Assembly (NCBI GenBank): GCA_025765615.1
Contig: JAIVFJ010000062.1
Coordinates: forward strand, 1 to 64,000
DNA length: 64,000 nucleotides
From: Zopfochytrium polystomum
Taxonomy: Eukaryota; Chytridiomycota; Chytridiomycetes; Chytridiales; Chytridiaceae
Direction of reading: 5' to 3'
The stretch's first letter is position 1. Every line of letters begins with the position of its first letter. Made by a program: the position numbers and the translations under genes. The notes below the pieces were generated by a model. It did no database searches and was not told where the DNA came from. It saw only the letters and a list, made by a program, of their open reading frames with translations. Below, piece after piece: positions 1,218-62,679 of the stretch.

Positions 1218-1500
1218 CTCTTCGCTCCGTCAAGCCTCGATCCGTTCAGTGGGTGGGTGGGGGGTGGCTGGTGCGTCGCGCGATGCCGATTTTGAAGCTG
1301 ATTTTATTATCGTTTTCCCTCTTTCTTCTTCGCTTTCCTCCTTGGCCGACAGAGCAGCGAAGGCGGCGGAGGCGTTTGGACGGGCAGCAGACCGTCCGAC
1401 AGACAGGTGCGCAGGTAAACGATGCACAGAAGCCAAGCCACGCACTGTCCGTCTGTCTGTTGTTGAATTGGCAAACAGCGCACAGACTGGGATTGAGCCT

Positions 1501-1511
1501 CACTCTCGCTA

Positions 1512-1545
<34 letters not shown>

Positions 1546-1672
1546 CTCTCTCTCTCCTCTCTCTCTCTCCTCTCATCTCTCTCTCTCTCTCTCTCCTCTC
1601 ATCTCTCTCTCCCCTCTCCTCATCTCTCTTCCTCTCTCTCTCCTCTCTCTCCTCTCTCTCTCTGTCGCTCTG
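1501..1672. repeat. (CT)n imperfect microsatellite in the CHS7 upstream region
   Basis: About 170 bases of CT dinucleotide with small variants lie 280-450 bases upstream of the CHS7 ATG; on the CHS7 coding strand it reads (GA)n. The surrounding 1218-1978 has no convincing gene. The long open frames there only translate the repeat as Ser/Leu or Glu/Arg. Confidence 0.9.
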
Positions 1673-1978
1673 CCTGCCTCTCTTCCCAATGACCACAGTC
1701 ACGCCCTCCATTCTCCGGGCCCTTGCTTGGCTCGCCGCTCTTCTTGCTGCTTGCGCTGCTTGCTGTTTCTTCTTCTTCTTCGTCTTCTTCTTCGAGACGA
1801 GACGAGAGGACTCGGTTCGTCGGGTACGACTTATTCTCCGTTGGTCAGTGTGCGTGTGGGTAACGCCGCTCTTTCCAAACAAGACATCAGTACTACTGTA
1901 CATTAGGAGAAACATGCCCCCCCAGTACTACTTCATCCGCTGCCTGGATGGAAATAAAGCAAAATCCAAGAAATATAG

Positions 1979-20795: not shown

Positions 20796-20877
20796 GACAA
20801 CGTGGCCGAGTGGTTAAGGCGACAGACTTGAAATCTGTTGGGGTTTCCCCGCGTAGGTTCGATCCCTGCCGTTGTCG
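20796..20877 (+). tRNA. tRNA-Ser (anticodon UGA)
   Basis: The 82-base cloverleaf lacks an intron. The acceptor arm GACAACG (20796-20802) pairs with CGTTGTC (20870-20876), followed by discriminator G. The D-arm reads GGCCGAGTGGTTAAGGC, the usual serine box A. The anticodon stem is ACAGA/TCTGT around CTTGAAA (anticodon TGA). A long variable arm follows (TGGGGTTTCCCCGC), as expected for serine, then the T-arm GTAGGTTCGATCCCTGC. No CCA is encoded. A TATAAAA lies about 35 bases upstream. Confidence 0.97.
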
Positions 20878-21459
20878 CAAGGAAACGGCATCAGTGAGGC
20901 GTAAGTTCGCCTTCTGCAATGTGATGTCAATTTGATCAAGCCATAAAAATTGAACAGAAGTGACCACATTCATCTTGACTCCACTGCAACTTCACCTTCA
21001 CCTACGAACACCGCGTGGACGACGTTGTATGTGGAAAGCCCTTCGCTGTTGCTCTGAACCCACGGATCCTAAGGCTCGGTGTGGCAGGCTATCTGAAATT
21101 ACCTTTCGCATCGCTACTTTGGGCCGTGGATTATGCGTGGAGCGGCACTCCAACGACCAAGCGTCGTATTCCAGTTTTTTTTGCCCCTTTCCCTGTCCTT
21201 TGTTTGTTTTCGATTGTTTCTTTCCCACCTTTGTCAGTGTCGCTCGGAGTGAATAGATTTGTTGTTCGCATACTTTATTCGGCCATGCTACTGATAGAGC
21301 TTATAATAGCAGCTGACAGAAGGGATGGGAACACTTCGGCTAAACGAGTCCCCAACTCTATGTCCGTTTGCGTCGCTGCGCGTGCCCCCGCTCCAACCCC
21401 GTCCCGCACATGTTTTTTCCGCCTACCAGGAGCCAGCCCAGAGAATGAAAAGGAGTGAG

Positions 21460-26495: not shown

Positions 26496-27890
26496 GGGTT
26501 AGCTCTATTTTGGCGTTGCCTGCCTCGGCAATTTCTGTTCCCCCACCTTTTTTAGTTGTGCGTTGCGTCTGTTTTCTTGCTTATGGTACCAATGCGTTTC
26601 TCCTTTTTTTTTCCAACCTACTTGCGCGAAAAACGTGGGATTGGGGAATCCCACTGCAAACTAATCTCCTTTTCCTTTTTTTTTTTTTTTTTTTTTTTTT
26701 TGGGCGGGTTCCTGTTCAAATACTTAGCAAAAGTTTGGGTCTTTTCTTCCCACCTGCTTTCTCTTTTTCCCCCTCAGCCTTTCCTTCTTCCTCCAAAAAG
26801 TCTATCGGGATTCTCCTTTCCGTCTACCTGCGCTCAGCTCTCCCTGCAGCAACCCCCATGCGAAACCACTCCCCGCTTCAAGGATATCCACCGCCTTTCT
26901 TCTACTTCCTGGCCTGTGCTTTTTTATTGTTGCGTGCGTTTTTTAGTGTGTTGTGCAGTGAAACCACGATGTCTTTCTTGTTTTGTTCCCTTTCTTTCTT
27001 CGTTGTGTTGGGGTGCATGGGGGTTATCTGTGATCCTTCCCCCTTCCCCCTACCCCCTCTTGCGTTGCGTTTCATGTTCAAAAAGAAATGAAGCAGGTTT
27101 GAATTTTGAAGTAACATTTCGCGAGGCAGCAGCCTCGGGCGGGACTTGCAACCTTCTCTTGGCACCAGACCCGACGCGTTCGGCGAGCCACTCTCTCTCC
27201 CTCTCTCTCTCTCGCTCGCGGTCCCAGCTGATGCGCGGCGAGGGAAATTGAACGAGCCCGTCCTCCGTAACGTAAAGAAGGAAAAATGTGAACGATACCC
27301 AAGCATCGCGGCTGTTGATTGGTGGGACTTGGTGCAACTCCTCCCTTTCCATGTATTCTGTTGGGACTGACGCGAATGCCCGCAGTCCGCAGCAGCAAGA
27401 AACGACAATTCAGCGATCCCATCACCCTATAAATGGGGAAGCCTGCCCTTACCCTTCTTTCAGTTTTTTCCCTCTCTGGCGTTCCAACAGTCCTCTTCAA
27501 TGCGATTCTAACTTTCGCCTTTTACTAAAGTTAGCCGTGTTGGAGCGCCGCTTGCTGAGAGTGTGCGAATTTTTTGAAACAAACCATTCTCCCAAACGGG
27601 GGAAAGGTCTCTGTACCAGGCAGTAGTTGATGAAAAAACGGCGAGGTGTTACCTTTGACAGAAGCGTCGTGGGCCTTGAACGACGGCGACTGGGAGTTGG
27701 AGGGGGTGCTGGGGAGCGGTGGCAGCGAGTTCGCTGTAATCATAACAGAGGAACTTGAACTTATTGTCTGACTGACCCTAAGGCACTTGCGAGACGTATG
27801 AGACATGAGCGCGGGCCAAGTGTTGCGTGTTGCCTCATCTCCACCCTCGAGGGTGTAAAAGATAATACCTCGGCCTCACAATTATCATTC
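26496..27890. other. Long intergenic stretch with T-runs; no firm gene
   Basis: This is pyrimidine-rich on the plus strand (a T-run of about 28 at 26674-26701). A short minus-strand exon-like frame around 27745-27650 (LPPLPSTPSNSQSPSFKAHD, then ASVKG followed by GTAACA) could belong to a small spliced gene, but no partner exons were found. Confidence 0.4.
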
Positions 27891-55905: not shown

Positions 55906-56203
55906 TTGTCGAGGTCGATTTCATCCCCGCACTGCTGATTCGGAATCTCACTTCACTTCCGTCGTTTCTTGCTTCTTTTTTGTTTGTTTTTTTTTTTTTT
56001 TTTTTTGTTGGGGCGGTGGCTGTCTGTCTGTCGGTCTGGCTCCGAGCGTCCGATTCGTCGATTCGTCGCCCCAGCTAGACAGACAGAAGCAAGCGTTTCT
56101 CTTTGCGTTGCTTTTTCCTCTTCTTTCCTTCGGATCTTCGGAGCCTGAACTTTTCTCCCACTTTCCGTACCTCTTTCCTTTCTTGCCCTTTTCTCTCTCC
56201 CAC

Positions 56204-56204
<1 letters not shown>

Positions 56205-56254
<50 letters not shown>

Positions 56255-56320
56255 CTCACTCTCTCCTCTCTCTCTCTCTCACTCTCGCTCTCTCTCACAC
56301 ACACACACACACACACTTGA
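56205..56320. repeat. (CT)n-(CA)n compound microsatellite upstream of the proton channel
   Basis: About 95 bases of CT-rich repeat are followed by about 20 bases of CA, ending about 85 bases before the ATG at 56400. It probably lies in the promoter or 5' UTR. Confidence 0.95.
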
Positions 56321-56399
56321 TTCTCCCAGAACTTCCGCCTCCGCGGGGGCAAGAAAGAAAAAGCCCCTCAATCTCTCGCAGACCTTTGCCAAGCCCCAA

Positions 56400-57636
56400 A
56401 TGACCAAGTCGAATACCAAAACGGCCCGCTCCTCGTCGCCGTCGTCGCCGCCCTCAATGAAGCGCCGCGTCGCCAGCGTCATCTACACCGACAACTGGCA
56501 CTACGCAATCATCGCCCTTGTCCTGCTCGACCTCCTCCTCGTCTTTGTCGACATTGTCCTCTCGCTCAACACTGCCTGCACCCCGCCCGAGAAGGAGGAA
56601 GGCGGCGATGACCCCACCACCACGCCCACCGCAACCAACGCCACTCTGAATCACCTGCTCGCCCTCGCCTTCAGCCTATCATCCGGAGCAGCAGCAGTGA
56701 ACAAGTCGACCGAGTCCACAGCTGCAGTCGGCTGCACGCCAAACATCCGCCCCTCGGCGGGCCTGTCGACCCTCGAGGACGCGCTGTTCTGGATCTCGAC
56801 GTCGCTGCTGATCGTCTTTGCCGCCGACGTCCTGCTGCACCTGTACGTCGAGGGCTTGCGGATGTTCAAGTCGCTGGTGACGAGCTTTGACGCGGTCGTC
56901 GTTTACAGCTCATTGGGTGAGATTGTGTTTTCTGCTTTCTCTTGTACCTGGTGCTATTTGGTCTGCCATCTCACACCAAAAAAAAAAACCACCCCAAGTC
57001 ATGGTCCTCGTCTTCAAATACACCAACACCGGCCAATCCGGCTCCTCGGCCATCGTCGCCCTGCGCATCTGGAAAATGATCCGCGTCATGCACGCCATGT
57101 CCGCGTCCATCGAAATGAGCCACCAGCGAACCATCCGCGCCATCAAGTCCGCAAACGAGGCCATCTCGGCTGCATGCCGTCGCACCGCGCAAGTCTTTAT
57201 CGACGCCCGGAGCGGGTTCCTCGACGCCGTCAAGGGCGTCGAAGAGGTCGCTGCTGTTACTGACCAAGGCGACGGGAGCGAGGAAACGGCAGCCCACCAC
57301 GCGATGGCGCTGACGATGGCCGAGGCCGCGGTCGCGGTCGACGCGATGCGCGCCGCGCTCGACGTGTTGAGGGAGGACGTCGCGGCGGCCAACAGGCAGC
57401 GGCTGGAGCGGGCGGTGCGGATCAACAATATGACGGTCGAGGACGCGGAGCGGATGGAGCGCGAGGAGCAGGAGATTGAGGAGATGTTTAGGCGGCACGT
57501 CATGTCGCTGAGGGCGGCGAGGACGGGTGCGGGCGGTGTGGGGGGCGGTGCTGCGGCGTTGGAGGAGGACGGCAGCGGGTCGAGGGAGGTGTTGGTTGGT
57601 GGGGAGAAGAGCAAGGGGTTTTTGGTTAGTGAGTGA
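56400..57636 (+). CDS. Voltage-gated proton channel, Hv1/HVCN1 type
   Basis: The ATG at 56400 opens MTKSNTKTARSS. Exon 1 is 56400-56916 and exon 2 is 56999-57636; the intron (GTGAGA...CCCAAG) keeps the frame, giving 384 aa. Four voltage-sensor helices are seen and no pore domain. S1 is YAIIALVLLDLLLVFVDIVL, whose Asp44 aligns with the selectivity-filter aspartate of Hv1 and Asp51 with the following acidic residue. S2 is ALFWISTSLLIVFAADVLLH; S3 is SFDAVVVYSSLVMVLVF. S4 is RIWKMIRVMH (residues 195-204), an R-x-W-K-x-x-R pattern with His where animal Hv1 has Asn. A long S1-S2 loop (about 70 aa) is N-glycosylation-rich. The C-terminal coiled coil (NRQRLERAVRINNMTVEDAE, then RMEREEQEIEEMFRRH) probably drives dimerisation. 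Function: voltage-gated proton efflux. Confidence 0.87.
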
Positions 57637-57881
57637 ATGGGGGGTTTGATCGGGGCTTGGTTGTGTCGAACGCTTTCTTTTTTGTAATTTATTCAACGTT
57701 GAACTCAATCGGCAAGGAAAGGAAAGGGAAAACCAACAGAGCACATTGGACCAGCAACGGCGGAGAACGATGGCAAAGGACCAAAAGGAGAAATGGGAGA
57801 CGAGAAAGCGCCCAGGGGGTGCATTTTTTGGCTCTTGCAGTTGAGGTTGCTTTCTTGCAGTTGCAGGTACCGATCCGCCCT

Positions 57882-58253
57882 TCACGCGGCCGGCCCGAGC
57901 TCGCCATCTGCGCCGCAGCTGTGTACACCCTCGCTGCAGTAATCCATGGGAGAGGGCGGGTAGTGTCAATGGGTCAGCGAAGCAGCGGCGCCTCCTCTCT
58001 CACAAACAGAGAAAACCAGCAAAGAAACTCACAAGTAGCACGCGGTGCCGCACACCCGCGCGCCGAGGGGGCACAGCGACAGGTCGTTGAAGCAGTTGTA
58101 CTTTGTCGGATTGTAGCAGGCCTCGCCGCAGGCCGACAGCCCGGACGCGGCGCATTCGGCCTGCGCCTGCTGCTGCGGGAAGGCCATGGTGGGGAGGGTG
58201 GCGGCGAAGATGGCGACGGCCAAAAAGAGGAGCTTTGCTGCTGCGAGCTTCAT
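57882..58253 (-). CDS. Small secreted Cys-rich protein, CBM52-like (copy 1)
   Basis: The ATG at 58253-58251 opens MKLAAAKLLFLAVAIFAATL, a signal peptide. Exon 1 is 58253-58033 and exon 2 is 57933-57882; the donor GTGAGT and acceptor CTGCAG keep the frame, giving 90 aa. The mature part, CGEACYNPTKYNCFNDLSLC then PLGARVCGTACY and EGVHSCGADGELG, has the doubled CG-x-A-C-Y ... Y-x-C layout of the fungal carbohydrate-binding domain CBM52, which binds beta-1,3-glucan. Eight cysteines remain after cleavage. It has no catalytic domain, so it may act as a free wall-binding protein. Its paralogue lies 730 bases away in the same orientation. Confidence 0.8.
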
Positions 58254-58984: not shown

Positions 58985-59483
58985 TCAAGCGGCTGGGGCG
59001 TCCACCGGGGCATCCACCGGGGCATCGACAGGGGCATCGACAGGGGCGTCGACAGGGGCGTCCACCGGGGCATCGACCGGCGCGTTAACCGGGGCTTCGA
59101 CGACGAGGGCAAGCTCGCCGTCCGCGCCGCACGTGTACACACCCGCGCTGAAATTTAAAGAAGCACAAAGGTGGATCGGCAGTCGTTAGCACGGAGAAAA
59201 CAGGCCGGTTTGCTCGCCCCCTCAAAAACAAGATCCCTGGCAAACCACTCAACTAGAAACACGCCGTTCCGCAGATCTGCGAGCCGACGGGGCACAGCGA
59301 CAGGTCGTTGAAGCACGTGTACTTTGTGGGGTTGTAGCACGCCTCGCCGCAGGCCGCCTGTCCCAGCGCCGCGCAGTCTTGAGCTTGCGCGAGGGGCAGG
59401 GCGGATGAGGGCGTGGACGTCGCGGCGAAGAAGGATGCGGCGGCGATGACGGCGAGGACGAGGGCGCGGGTTGTGGAGGGCAT
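58985..59483 (-). CDS. Small secreted CBM52-like protein with VDAP-repeat tail (copy 2)
   Basis: The ATG at 59483-59481 opens MPSTTRALVLAVIAAASFFA. This start gives the best signal peptide; an upstream ATG at 59528 adds 15 residues. Exon 1 is 59483-59254 and exon 2 is 59147-58985; donor GTTGAG and acceptor TTTCAG keep the frame, giving 130 aa. The CBM52-like core is CGEACYNPTKYTCFNDLSLC, PVGSQICGTACFY and AGVYTCGADGELA, nearly identical to copy 1. The tail is new: seven VDAP units follow EAPVNAP, coded by a 12-base tandem repeat (about 58992-59085), ending in AA. Pro/Ala repeats of this sort could serve as a wall spacer or stalk. Confidence 0.82.
58992..59087 (-). repeat. 12-bp coding tandem repeat (VDAP)n
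   Basis: Units of the GTCGATGCCCCT type on the minus strand are repeated seven times, plus a variant unit coding VNAP. They differ only by synonymous changes, so the peptide repeat appears to be under selection. Confidence 0.9.
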
Positions 59484-59528
59484 AGTGGTTTTTTCGATGG
59501 GTTGGTGGAGGCTTTCGGCCCCTTGCAT

Positions 59529-60460
59529 CTTAGTACTGCCCTCGAAGACACAATATCAATGCACGACAAGCCGCATGCATCAATTTAGCGCAACTCCTTT
59601 CAGGGAAACCGCCACGGAAGAAAAGCAGCGCCACCGGAACTGTCACCTGATCTCATCAACTTGCAGACGCTTCCGCACCGAATTGGACGAGAGAGAAATT
59701 GCATCGTCCATCTATTTTTATTTTTTTCACATCAACTCTACTTTAATGAAACTCTGCTTCTCAAAGACGTTTCTCGATGAGCCCGCTGGCTTACACACTG
59801 CGCAGAGCGCTCTCAGACGCCGATCCTGTCGTAACTTGCTTCCTCGAGCCGGGTTGGACGCCGTTTTTCTTCTGCATGTCCAAAGCAAGCTTGCGGACAC
59901 CGTCAAAGTCAGGGAGATATCGACCCGGAGTACCTGCACGGGCGAGTGGTTGTTGCATTGCGAAATATTTGTTGGCCACTCTCTTTCCGTCCTGTCCCGC
60001 TCAGCTTCGCCTGATTTTATCCATGATCATTCGCGATCGCATCATTAGCCGTTGTTCTGAGCTCCCGCTGCTCTGCGACTGAGCGAAAAAAGAATCAGAT
60101 TTTTTTCTTTCCAACAAAGAGCTCAGGCTAAATGAACAAAGCTTCGCTCCAGCATTTCAGCTGCAGGTGATCGCTGCACAATGACAATCTTGACCTTTCG
60201 CCCAGTCCGCGTCCGATAATCCGAATACCCAATTCCCTGAGCGCATTAACAAGTTTCACGCCTGCACAAATGGAAACCTCGAGGGATACACAACAACTTT
60301 GTTGAAGAAAAAAAATCCTAAAACGCGACGGCGAAAAAAACAAAACAAAAAAAAAAGCAAGAAAAAAAGACGTCGCCCAAAGCCTGAGGCGAGACGAGAA
60401 AGGGAAGAAACGAAGTGAAAAGAAGAGGAAAGGGGGGAATTCTTTTTAATTTTTTTTTTT
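59529..60460. other. No gene seen
   Basis: The upstream region of CBM52-like copy 2 is followed by A-rich sequence (60300-60370). No coding or RNA feature is recognised. Confidence 0.5.
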
Positions 60461-60760
60461 TCAGTGGCCCCCGTTCAGCGGGTGAAATCCAGGGTTACGA
60501 TTCTTGGGGTCATGGTTCAACGGATGCCACCCCGGGTTTGCCGCCTTCTTCTCAGGGTCAAGTGGGTGCCAGCCCGGGTTCGCCTTTGCAGGCGGATTAG
60601 GAGGCAGCGGGTGCCAGCCGTTCGCCGGGAGGGCGTTGACAAACTTGGAGGCGAAAAAGGCATGTCCCGGGGCGAGCGACGCGAGAGGCGCGAGCAAGAA
60701 CAAGAGGAAGACCAGCGGGAGCGTCAGGCTTGAGTGAGCGCGGACGCGAGCCGATCAATG
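60461..60760 (-). CDS. Secreted repeat peptide precursor with four GWHPL units (start unresolved)
   Basis: A minus-strand frame begins SSLTLPLVFLLFLLAPLASL, a strong signal peptide cleaved near GHAFFA. It continues with four 14-residue units: NGWHPLPPNPPAKA, NPGWHPLDPEKKAA, NPGWHPLNHDPKNR and NPGFHPLNGGH, then the stop at 60461. The unit spacing is exact (42 bases). Basic residues (K, KK, KNR) precede each later unit, as in kexin-processed peptide precursors. No in-frame ATG exists between the upstream TGA (about 60754) and the signal peptide, so the start must come from an upstream exon or an indel. Function unknown; a mating or signalling peptide is conceivable, as is a structural repeat protein. 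Confidence 0.6.
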
Positions 60761-60993
60761 GCGGCGGTTACGGGGCTGTGGCGTCTGCTGGCGTGACATC
60801 GGATTTAAGTAGGGGAGAAGGGTTACTGGGATCGGCAAAGTGGTGGTGTGTGGAGTTTGAGTTGTGGAATTGGAGTATGGGTGGTGGAATTGGAAACTGG
60901 AGGATGGGTATTTTATAGGGTTTAGGGCGGGACGATGCGAGATGTCTTCTGTGCGGTGGGCTAAGTTTTGGGAGAAGAATTGGAAGGTTGAGT

Positions 60994-60995
<2 letters not shown>

Positions 60996-61030
<35 letters not shown>

Positions 61031-61031
61031 G

Positions 61032-61072
<41 letters not shown>
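60996..61072. repeat. (GA)n microsatellite
   Basis: About 75 bases of GA mark the left border of the compositionally different block 61075-63250. Confidence 0.95.
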
Positions 61073-61073
<1 letters not shown>

Positions 61074-62679
61074 CTATGTTACCTGTGCTATTATTATTTG
61101 CGCTAGTATTATTGTTATATTTTTGTGTACAACAGCTGCAGACACAGGGCGTCAGTTTTTGCTCAGGTACTGGCATAGGGCTCCCTTGCTGAGCTCTCCC
61201 TTCAATTGGGAAGGTGCCAAGTTTGAGACATAATCGCTGTTGGGCTGCAAAGTCCACCATGTCGAGCTGACAACCCCTCACTTTTGGAATGACTAAGAAC
61301 TGGAACCACTTCTGTGGGAGTAGTGCAAAGTCCAGACGCCCACCTACCATGATGTTATGCCTCATATGAGTGGTATGAGAAGACAGGGCTTTTCTTTCTC
61401 TTTCTGTTGGTGATTTTTACTTATTTTTCAATTTGTATTTTCCTTTGTTTGGCTCTTTCTCTTGTTTTATCTTTCATTTAAGGGAACGGCTATTCACAGA
61501 CTCCCTGTGACTAGGACGGTGGACGGGATGGGAGACCCCCTTGAACCACCTTTCTTGTCGTTTTCACTTTCATTGATATTAATTCATCTCTGCGAAATGA
61601 CAAGCTTTTGGACCGGCTTCGCCGATGCCAGTGGCTGCTGCTGCGTCAATAATGCTGGTGTTTATCTGGTGTTGGTTGCTGGTAGTGATCTCACCGATGC
61701 TGATGGAGCTGCGGATCAGCTTGAGCTAATAATTCGGGCACGTTCGACAATCATTCCCAGCAACCTGGCAAACCCCAGACATGAGCTTTTCACCAACTCA
61801 AACTGACTTGGGATGTGAGCTGTAGCTTTTGCGAGGAGTTTTCTCTGCTTAGACATGTTTGGCCTTCCACAAACCTGTGCTGTTTCTGGGTTGAAAATAA
61901 CCTGCCCTGCAGGACCTCCAATGATTTCCCACAACTGATCTAGCAGGCGCTGTTTTGCTGCTGCTGGAAGTGAAACAGCGATCGACATGAAATGGGCAAG
62001 TTGCACATCCAGGTCTCTCAAGGTGATATGAATGAGTTGGCTGGTCAGGTACTGCTGTAGGAATGGTCTCTCAGGTATGCCCCCTTCTCCCTGTGTTGGC
62101 TCCTGTGGCCTCTGGTGGGCCTGGCCTTCACTGGGTTCAGACCCTCTTTCTCTCAGATTAATGCCTGTGATGTCATGATGCCACACATGTATGAGGGAGT
62201 GGGTTTTTACCTTCCTTGCTTCTAAGAAAGGGAACTCCTCTGGCCTGGTGAGGCAGATGTCTGTGTCCTCGTAGGATGAAGCAAGAAGAGTCCCACTGTC
62301 TCCCACCCTGTGTACCCCTCCTTGGATTGAGTTGGAACCTCTCTTGGGAGTGAGACAAGATGTGTCTGGCTCTGTTAAGTGGAAAACGGTTCTGGTTTGA
62401 TCCAACAGGCACCTCTGCACACTAACTGTTCCTTGTTTTTTTCCCATTTGTGTCCAACCCCCTCCAACTTAGGGCCTGTCTTCGGCAGAGAGGGAGCTGG
62501 TGCTGCAAGGTGGTGGCTCCAACAAGTTCGGACCTGGCCACTTTCCTCCCCACGCTCTTGTCTTCCCCCTTGGCTTCTGCCTTGGGAAGGATGGCACAGA
62601 TTGGTTGGTGCTGCCTTAGGCGCACCCTTTGTTGCCCTGAGTCTCATTCCTTACCAAGTGATCCAGTCTCTTTGGCTTA

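Follow-up and report, generated by a model that had tools for sequence, protein, structure and literature searches.

Four G[WF]HPL motifs lie in a 97-residue open frame (P0001; 60754-60461, minus strand) of the chytrid Zopfochytrium polystomum. Our leading reading, to which we give about even chances, is that the gene belongs to an orphan family of small proteins, secreted or membrane-anchored, and has been disabled. The copy examined is most probably either a pseudogene or a null allele. The window is the whole stretch of DNA that was analysed, 64,000 bases long (C62:1-64000), from a genome of 80,164,350 bases in 761 contigs. An earlier note on this DNA had described a secreted repeat precursor in an early-diverging fungus, with four GWHPL-type motifs. 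The motif count was correct, and the organism belongs to Chytridiomycota, Chytridiales; the named database relative of a paralogue is also from Zopfochytrium polystomum. The features of the locus are given in Table 1.

Table 1. Positions of the repeat gene, its upstream elements and its paralogues. Positions are those of the window unless a locus is named.
Feature	Position	Strand	Remarks
Block upstream of TATA-like box	60937..60946	minus	GACATCTCGC
TATA-box-like element	60912..60920	minus	CCCTATAAA; first base 121 bases from ATG (133 in C276)
Start exon as assembled	60758..60799	minus	ATG + 14 codons, MSRQQTPQPRNRRH, then TGA
In-frame TGA	60755..60757	minus	Between family start and hydrophobic segment/repeats
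Open frame P0001	60754-60461	minus	97 codons + stop (TGA); hydrophobic segment, four G[WF]HPL units
Hydrophobic segment	60671..60715	minus	P0001 residues 14-28; putative signal peptide or membrane anchor
Repeat unit 1	60605..60625	minus	ANGWHPL
Repeat unit 2	60560..60580	minus	NPGWHPL
KK	60545..60550	minus	Sole dibasic site of P0001 tail, between units 2 and 3
Repeat unit 3	60518..60538	minus	NPGWHPL
Repeat unit 4	60476..60496	minus	NPGFHPL
Paralogue copy in L028 (C242)	1660-1926		Near-identical to copy in L021
Paralogue copy in L021 (C276)	1471-1869		Near-identical to copy in L028

The repeat array and its conservation

All four G[WF]HPL motifs found in a six-frame count of the window fall inside P0001, in its Pro/Asn-rich tail; their cores begin at P0001 residues 46, 61, 75 and 89. 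The spacings are thus 15, 14 and 14 residues, and the first unit reads ANGWHPL, so that the array is less regular than the four even 14-residue units first proposed. The spacers had also been described as basic-ended, which they are not with any regularity. The residues directly before units 1 to 4 are LPA, AKA, KAA and KNR respectively, and the tail contains one dibasic site, KK.

When the residues of P0001 were shuffled, only one of 200,000 shuffles had at least two G[WF]HPL motifs. A DNA pattern for PGWHPL had two matches in the genome, both in the window array, and the reversed control had four; a single motif is therefore neither rarer nor commoner than expected, and it is the array that stands out. 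A pattern of two WHP blocks 21-51 bases apart gave 11 genome matches (reversed control, 2), two of which are the window array. The remaining nine, viewed as matched DNA only, include near-identical copies. Other long frames are present at the locus, for example one of 83 aa on the plus strand, so the openness of the 97-codon frame by itself says little.

Over the six core pairs, in which a single change may enter several pairs, base differences at codon positions 1, 2 and 3 numbered 3, 3 and 17 (17 of 23 at the third position). Among 30 core codon pairs, 16 differences were silent and three changed the residue. When equal numbers of changes were placed at random on unit 2, which all three comparisons share, none of 20,000 trials gave as few residue changes. 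Since the differences lie mostly at third codon positions, there is good evidence that the motif was under selection as protein at some time, as judged from the codons. Core residue pairs differ in 9 of 42 cases in the GWHPL frame. The other five frames were rejected as the coding frame of the repeats, with 24/48 to 35/48 core pairs differing (23/42 in one frame).

The MSRQ family

The window gene shares an MSRQ start, a basic stretch and a hydrophobic segment with P0002 on C129 and with P0003 and its near-identical copy, P0004, on C276 and C242 respectively. These features define what appears to be a family of short MSRQ proteins, so far seen only in Zopfochytrium polystomum. The general plan would be the MSRQ start and a basic N-terminal stretch, then a single hydrophobic segment and finally a tail that changes fast. 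P0002 has 115 residues and starts MSRQTPRSARVRSSPSLTFPLLFLLL, and P0003 has 132 residues and starts MSRQQPQ; neither has a stop near the start. Their tails are unlike that of the window gene and contain no GWHPL repeats, being Ser/Arg/Gly-rich in P0002 and His/Pro-rich, then Ser-rich, in P0003.

The window matches the C129 paralogue over residues 1-42 at E 0.0036 (E 0.0019 in the reverse search from C129), and the C129 protein in turn reaches C276 at E 0.011. Taken alone, the matches at E 0.0036 and E 0.011 would be weak indications of kinship. The copies on C276 and C242 also have the upstream block in common with the window gene. The pair of GACATCTCGC followed by CCCTATAAA occurs at three places in the genome (C62, C242 and C276) and at none in the reversed control. 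The C129 contig ends before its promoter region is fully visible.

Over the 396-base P0003 frame, C276 and C242 differ at seven places, one of which, an extra base, puts C242 out of frame. The public gene model for C242, P0004 (92 aa; hypothetical protein DFJ73DRAFT_784326 [Zopfochytrium polystomum]), omits the stretch around this shift. The omission suggests that an intron was modelled to get past it; a real intron is also possible. P0004 was the sole database relative of P0003 among those scored at E up to 10. In the protein database, annotated Z. polystomum proteins included none that matched the window gene at E up to 10, and they did include the C242 copy of the paralogue, in keeping with a disabled window copy.

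Start and interruption of the window copy

P0001 contains no ATG. The ATG at 60799 is very probably the inherited start of the family, judging by the MSRQ start that the paralogues share and the promoter block common to the window, C276 and C242. The first 15 bases from this ATG are identical in the window and C276. An upstream start codon, whose absence the earlier note would have counted against its reading, is present and in frame, and a TGA (60757-60755) intervenes between it and P0001.

This single TGA falls within the window's match to the C129 paralogue. The C129 and C276 genes have an uninterrupted frame from start to hydrophobic segment and the window copy does not; with no stop in that region of the paralogues, the window copy is taken to be interrupted as assembled. 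Two points count against expression of the precursor as it was first written: the stop ahead of the hydrophobic segment, and the absence of the repeats from the paralogues on C129 and C276. Transcribed from the shared promoter, the gene would yield a product of 14 residues, the stop being reached 14 codons after the start, and the loss of function of this copy may be fairly recent. Leader dN/dS was 0.88 for window/C129 (44 codons), 0.83 for window/C276 (36 codons) and 0.47 for C129/C276 (35 codons). The window values fit weaker constraint and a disabled copy, with the reservation that each comparison covers few codons (35 to 44).

A GT-AG intron that would hide the TGA was rejected, since none joins the ATG to the repeat frame stop-free. 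Three stop-free GC-AG joins do exist; their donors, GCAGAC, GCCACA and GCCCCG, are in our judgement unlike real donors. Selenocysteine at the TGA was judged unlikely; a scan of 59200-61200 against Rfam, to E 1, gave no match.

The 97-codon frame after the TGA is open and its cores are intact, so it could alternatively still be in use, and it is possible that the TGA is an assembly or allelic artefact. As assembled, the window gene is a caution for repeat-peptide mining from raw sequence: in a copy whose own start does not permit its translation, a repeat pattern kept as protein can survive.

Possible processing of the repeat tail

The main alternative to a disabled copy, possible in our view and on balance unlikely, is that the gene is intact, the stop being an assembly error or confined to one allele. 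The protein would then be a secreted precursor that releases peptides of the NPG[WF]HPL type, either by cleavage at single basic residues or by cleavage at KK with subsequent removal of Ala. Units 2 to 4 each begin one to three residues after Lys or Arg (AKA, KKAA, KNR), and cutting at these single basic residues is possible on this spacing. Unit 1 has no basic residue directly before it, and the single dibasic site also counts against such a precursor. The genome contains three matches above cut-off to proprotein-convertase P domains, two of them with a TGA inside the matched frame. The extra base that separates C276 from C242 is an example of the small disruptions, real or technical, that occur in this assembly. 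One missing or extra base, however, cannot open the frame of the window gene; that would take either a base substitution or two shifts, a rarer kind of assembly error.

The earlier comparison with alpha-factor and other kexin-type precursors fared poorly. KEX2-processed repeat proteins (KEPs), which include the alpha-factor and dikaritin precursors, resemble the window gene in that short repeats with a conserved core come after a hydrophobic segment at the N-terminus. They differ in having a dibasic site between each pair of repeats, whereas the window tail has only one and its frame is interrupted near the start. Of the published surveys, one requires a KEP to have three or more repeats separated by dibasic sites (PMC7329392) and the other requires at least four fragments (PMC6339444). 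The window gene has enough repeats, with four G[WF]HPL against three, and falls short on cutting, since its one KK would yield two fragments. A kexin-type architecture is therefore not supported for P0001 by its predicted cutting sites. One survey gives 178 KEPs in 19 strains of Chytridiomycota (PMC7329392), so that a chytrid KEP would in itself be ordinary. A dikaritin-type RiPP precursor would be expected to have a UstYa (DUF3328) gene close by. The UstYa profile PF11807 had no match in the genome; it also matched none of 14 control genomes, so this absence is unproven.

The hydrophobic segment and targeting

The best 15-residue Kyte-Doolittle mean of P0001, 2.63, falls on residues 14-28. 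A structure model built without related sequences had low confidence (mean pLDDT 63.4, pTM 0.25) and placed a helix at residues 11-26. Of the proposal of a signal peptide followed by repeats, the hydrophobic segment and the kept-core repeats stand, and the signal peptide is only putative. For the family as a whole, the N-terminal region could, from the sequences, be a signal peptide, a membrane anchor or a mitochondrial presequence. The composition of the tails and the hydrophobic core incline us to a secretory route.

That the family is not secreted at all seems to us quite unlikely. The Arg/Ser-rich start would in that case either be a mitochondrial presequence or form the cytosolic end of an anchor in the membrane. 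This might be suggested by the basic residues ahead of the best hydrophobic window: the stretch there has 16 residues and net charge +4 in P0002, and 33 residues and net +7 in P0003. P0003 also matches DUF1180 (FAM174-like membrane protein), though at 16.9 bits (E 0.0092) the match stays under the cut-off of 27.7. With their richness in Pro, His, Asn or Ser, the tails would nevertheless suit the cell surface better.

If the family is secreted or membrane-anchored, as we prefer, an intact protein would enter the secretory pathway, and it would display its repeats on the outside of the cell in a flexible, multivalent Trp/His/Pro tail that stays uncut and frees no peptides. Such a tail might serve in wall contact or metal binding; the searches found no homologue, and the structure model gave no confident fold. 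The octarepeats of the prion protein and other His/Trp metal-binding repeats are flexible and Pro/Gly-rich, and each repeat has a single aromatic residue and a single His. The window units are perhaps comparable with the octarepeats in residue makeup; their length and residue order are different, and no sequence relation is known.

A bolder extension, which we consider improbable, is that chytrids present the undescribed motif NPG(W/F)HPL on a secreted repeat protein, uncut or cut at single basic residues. Within its family, one leader and promoter would carry very different, fast-changing tails, and the assembled copy would be one disabled allele of a gene that other strains have intact. Intact copies in other strains would make the family a test case for the gain of new tails by one leader and promoter. 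According to one survey, pheromones are largely unknown in early-diverging fungi except Mucoromycotina and Blastocladiomycota (PMC6339444).

The slimmest chance is given to a non-ATG start at CTG 60727, which is in the P0001 frame with A at -3, directly ahead of the hydrophobic segment. The signal peptide begun there would be short, and the upstream ATG would serve as the start of a short upstream reading frame. Against this stand the ATG that the paralogues have at the position of 60799 and the next downstream ATG, 60663, which is in another frame.

Searches for relatives

A search of 5.8 billion proteins gave 78 candidates for P0001, none of them with E up to 10, and a lengthened repeat query had none at E up to 10 among the 7,997 candidates that shared most words with it. 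Pattern matches to the repeats in viral contigs (34) and in bacterial and archaeal genomes (557) included none that was confirmed. No solved structure matched P0001 at E up to 10, Pfam had no match for P0001, and NCBIfam had none for P0001, P0002 or P0003. The searches made thus found no relatives of the repeats elsewhere. In the literature, GWHPL was not found in the text, and NPGWH, PGWHP and GFHPL led to no fungal paper, as judged by title. The earlier note knew of no described peptide with this core, which agrees with these protein and literature searches.

Within the genome, P0001 had three matches. For one of them, on C102 at E 0.77, the surrounding frame of 641 residues has one NPGFHHL, seen by eye, and no array. 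P0002 had seven, among which those on C5, C48 and C6 appeared unrelated; C332 was also listed. The 19 matches of P0003 included four family rows (C276, two pieces of C242, and C129). Eight of the other 15 were examined: seven were copies or variants of one repeated sequence, and the one on C28 appeared unrelated. Weak matches to the P0003 tail were seen on C170, C236, C73, C275, C24, C72 and C2 (L035, L036, L037, L038, L042, L044 and L045). The multi-copy sequence that matches this tail is probably a repeat element.

Neighbourhood of the gene

A gene for a Cys-rich small protein of secreted type lies at 59253-59480 on the minus strand of the window and matches the Pfam family Carb_bind (PF10645; 27.9 bits, cut-off 25). 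A neighbouring second gene of this kind, at about 57880-58253 on the same strand, has a stretch that is 82% identical in DNA over 127 bases and that reads, by eye, CYNPTKYNCFNDLSLCPLG. Adjoining the Carb_bind gene is a short tandem array (58985-59084) whose minus strand reads DAPV and whose plus strand reads STGA. Two membrane-protein-like frames, judged similar by eye and lying on opposite strands (window 56079-57263, plus; L059 500-1099, minus), bracket the region in which the repeat gene and the Carb_bind pair lie. The window also contains a U5 spliceosomal RNA at 27473-27605 (plus strand; 56.3 bits, cut-off 40) and a tRNA-Ser at 20796-20878 (plus strand).
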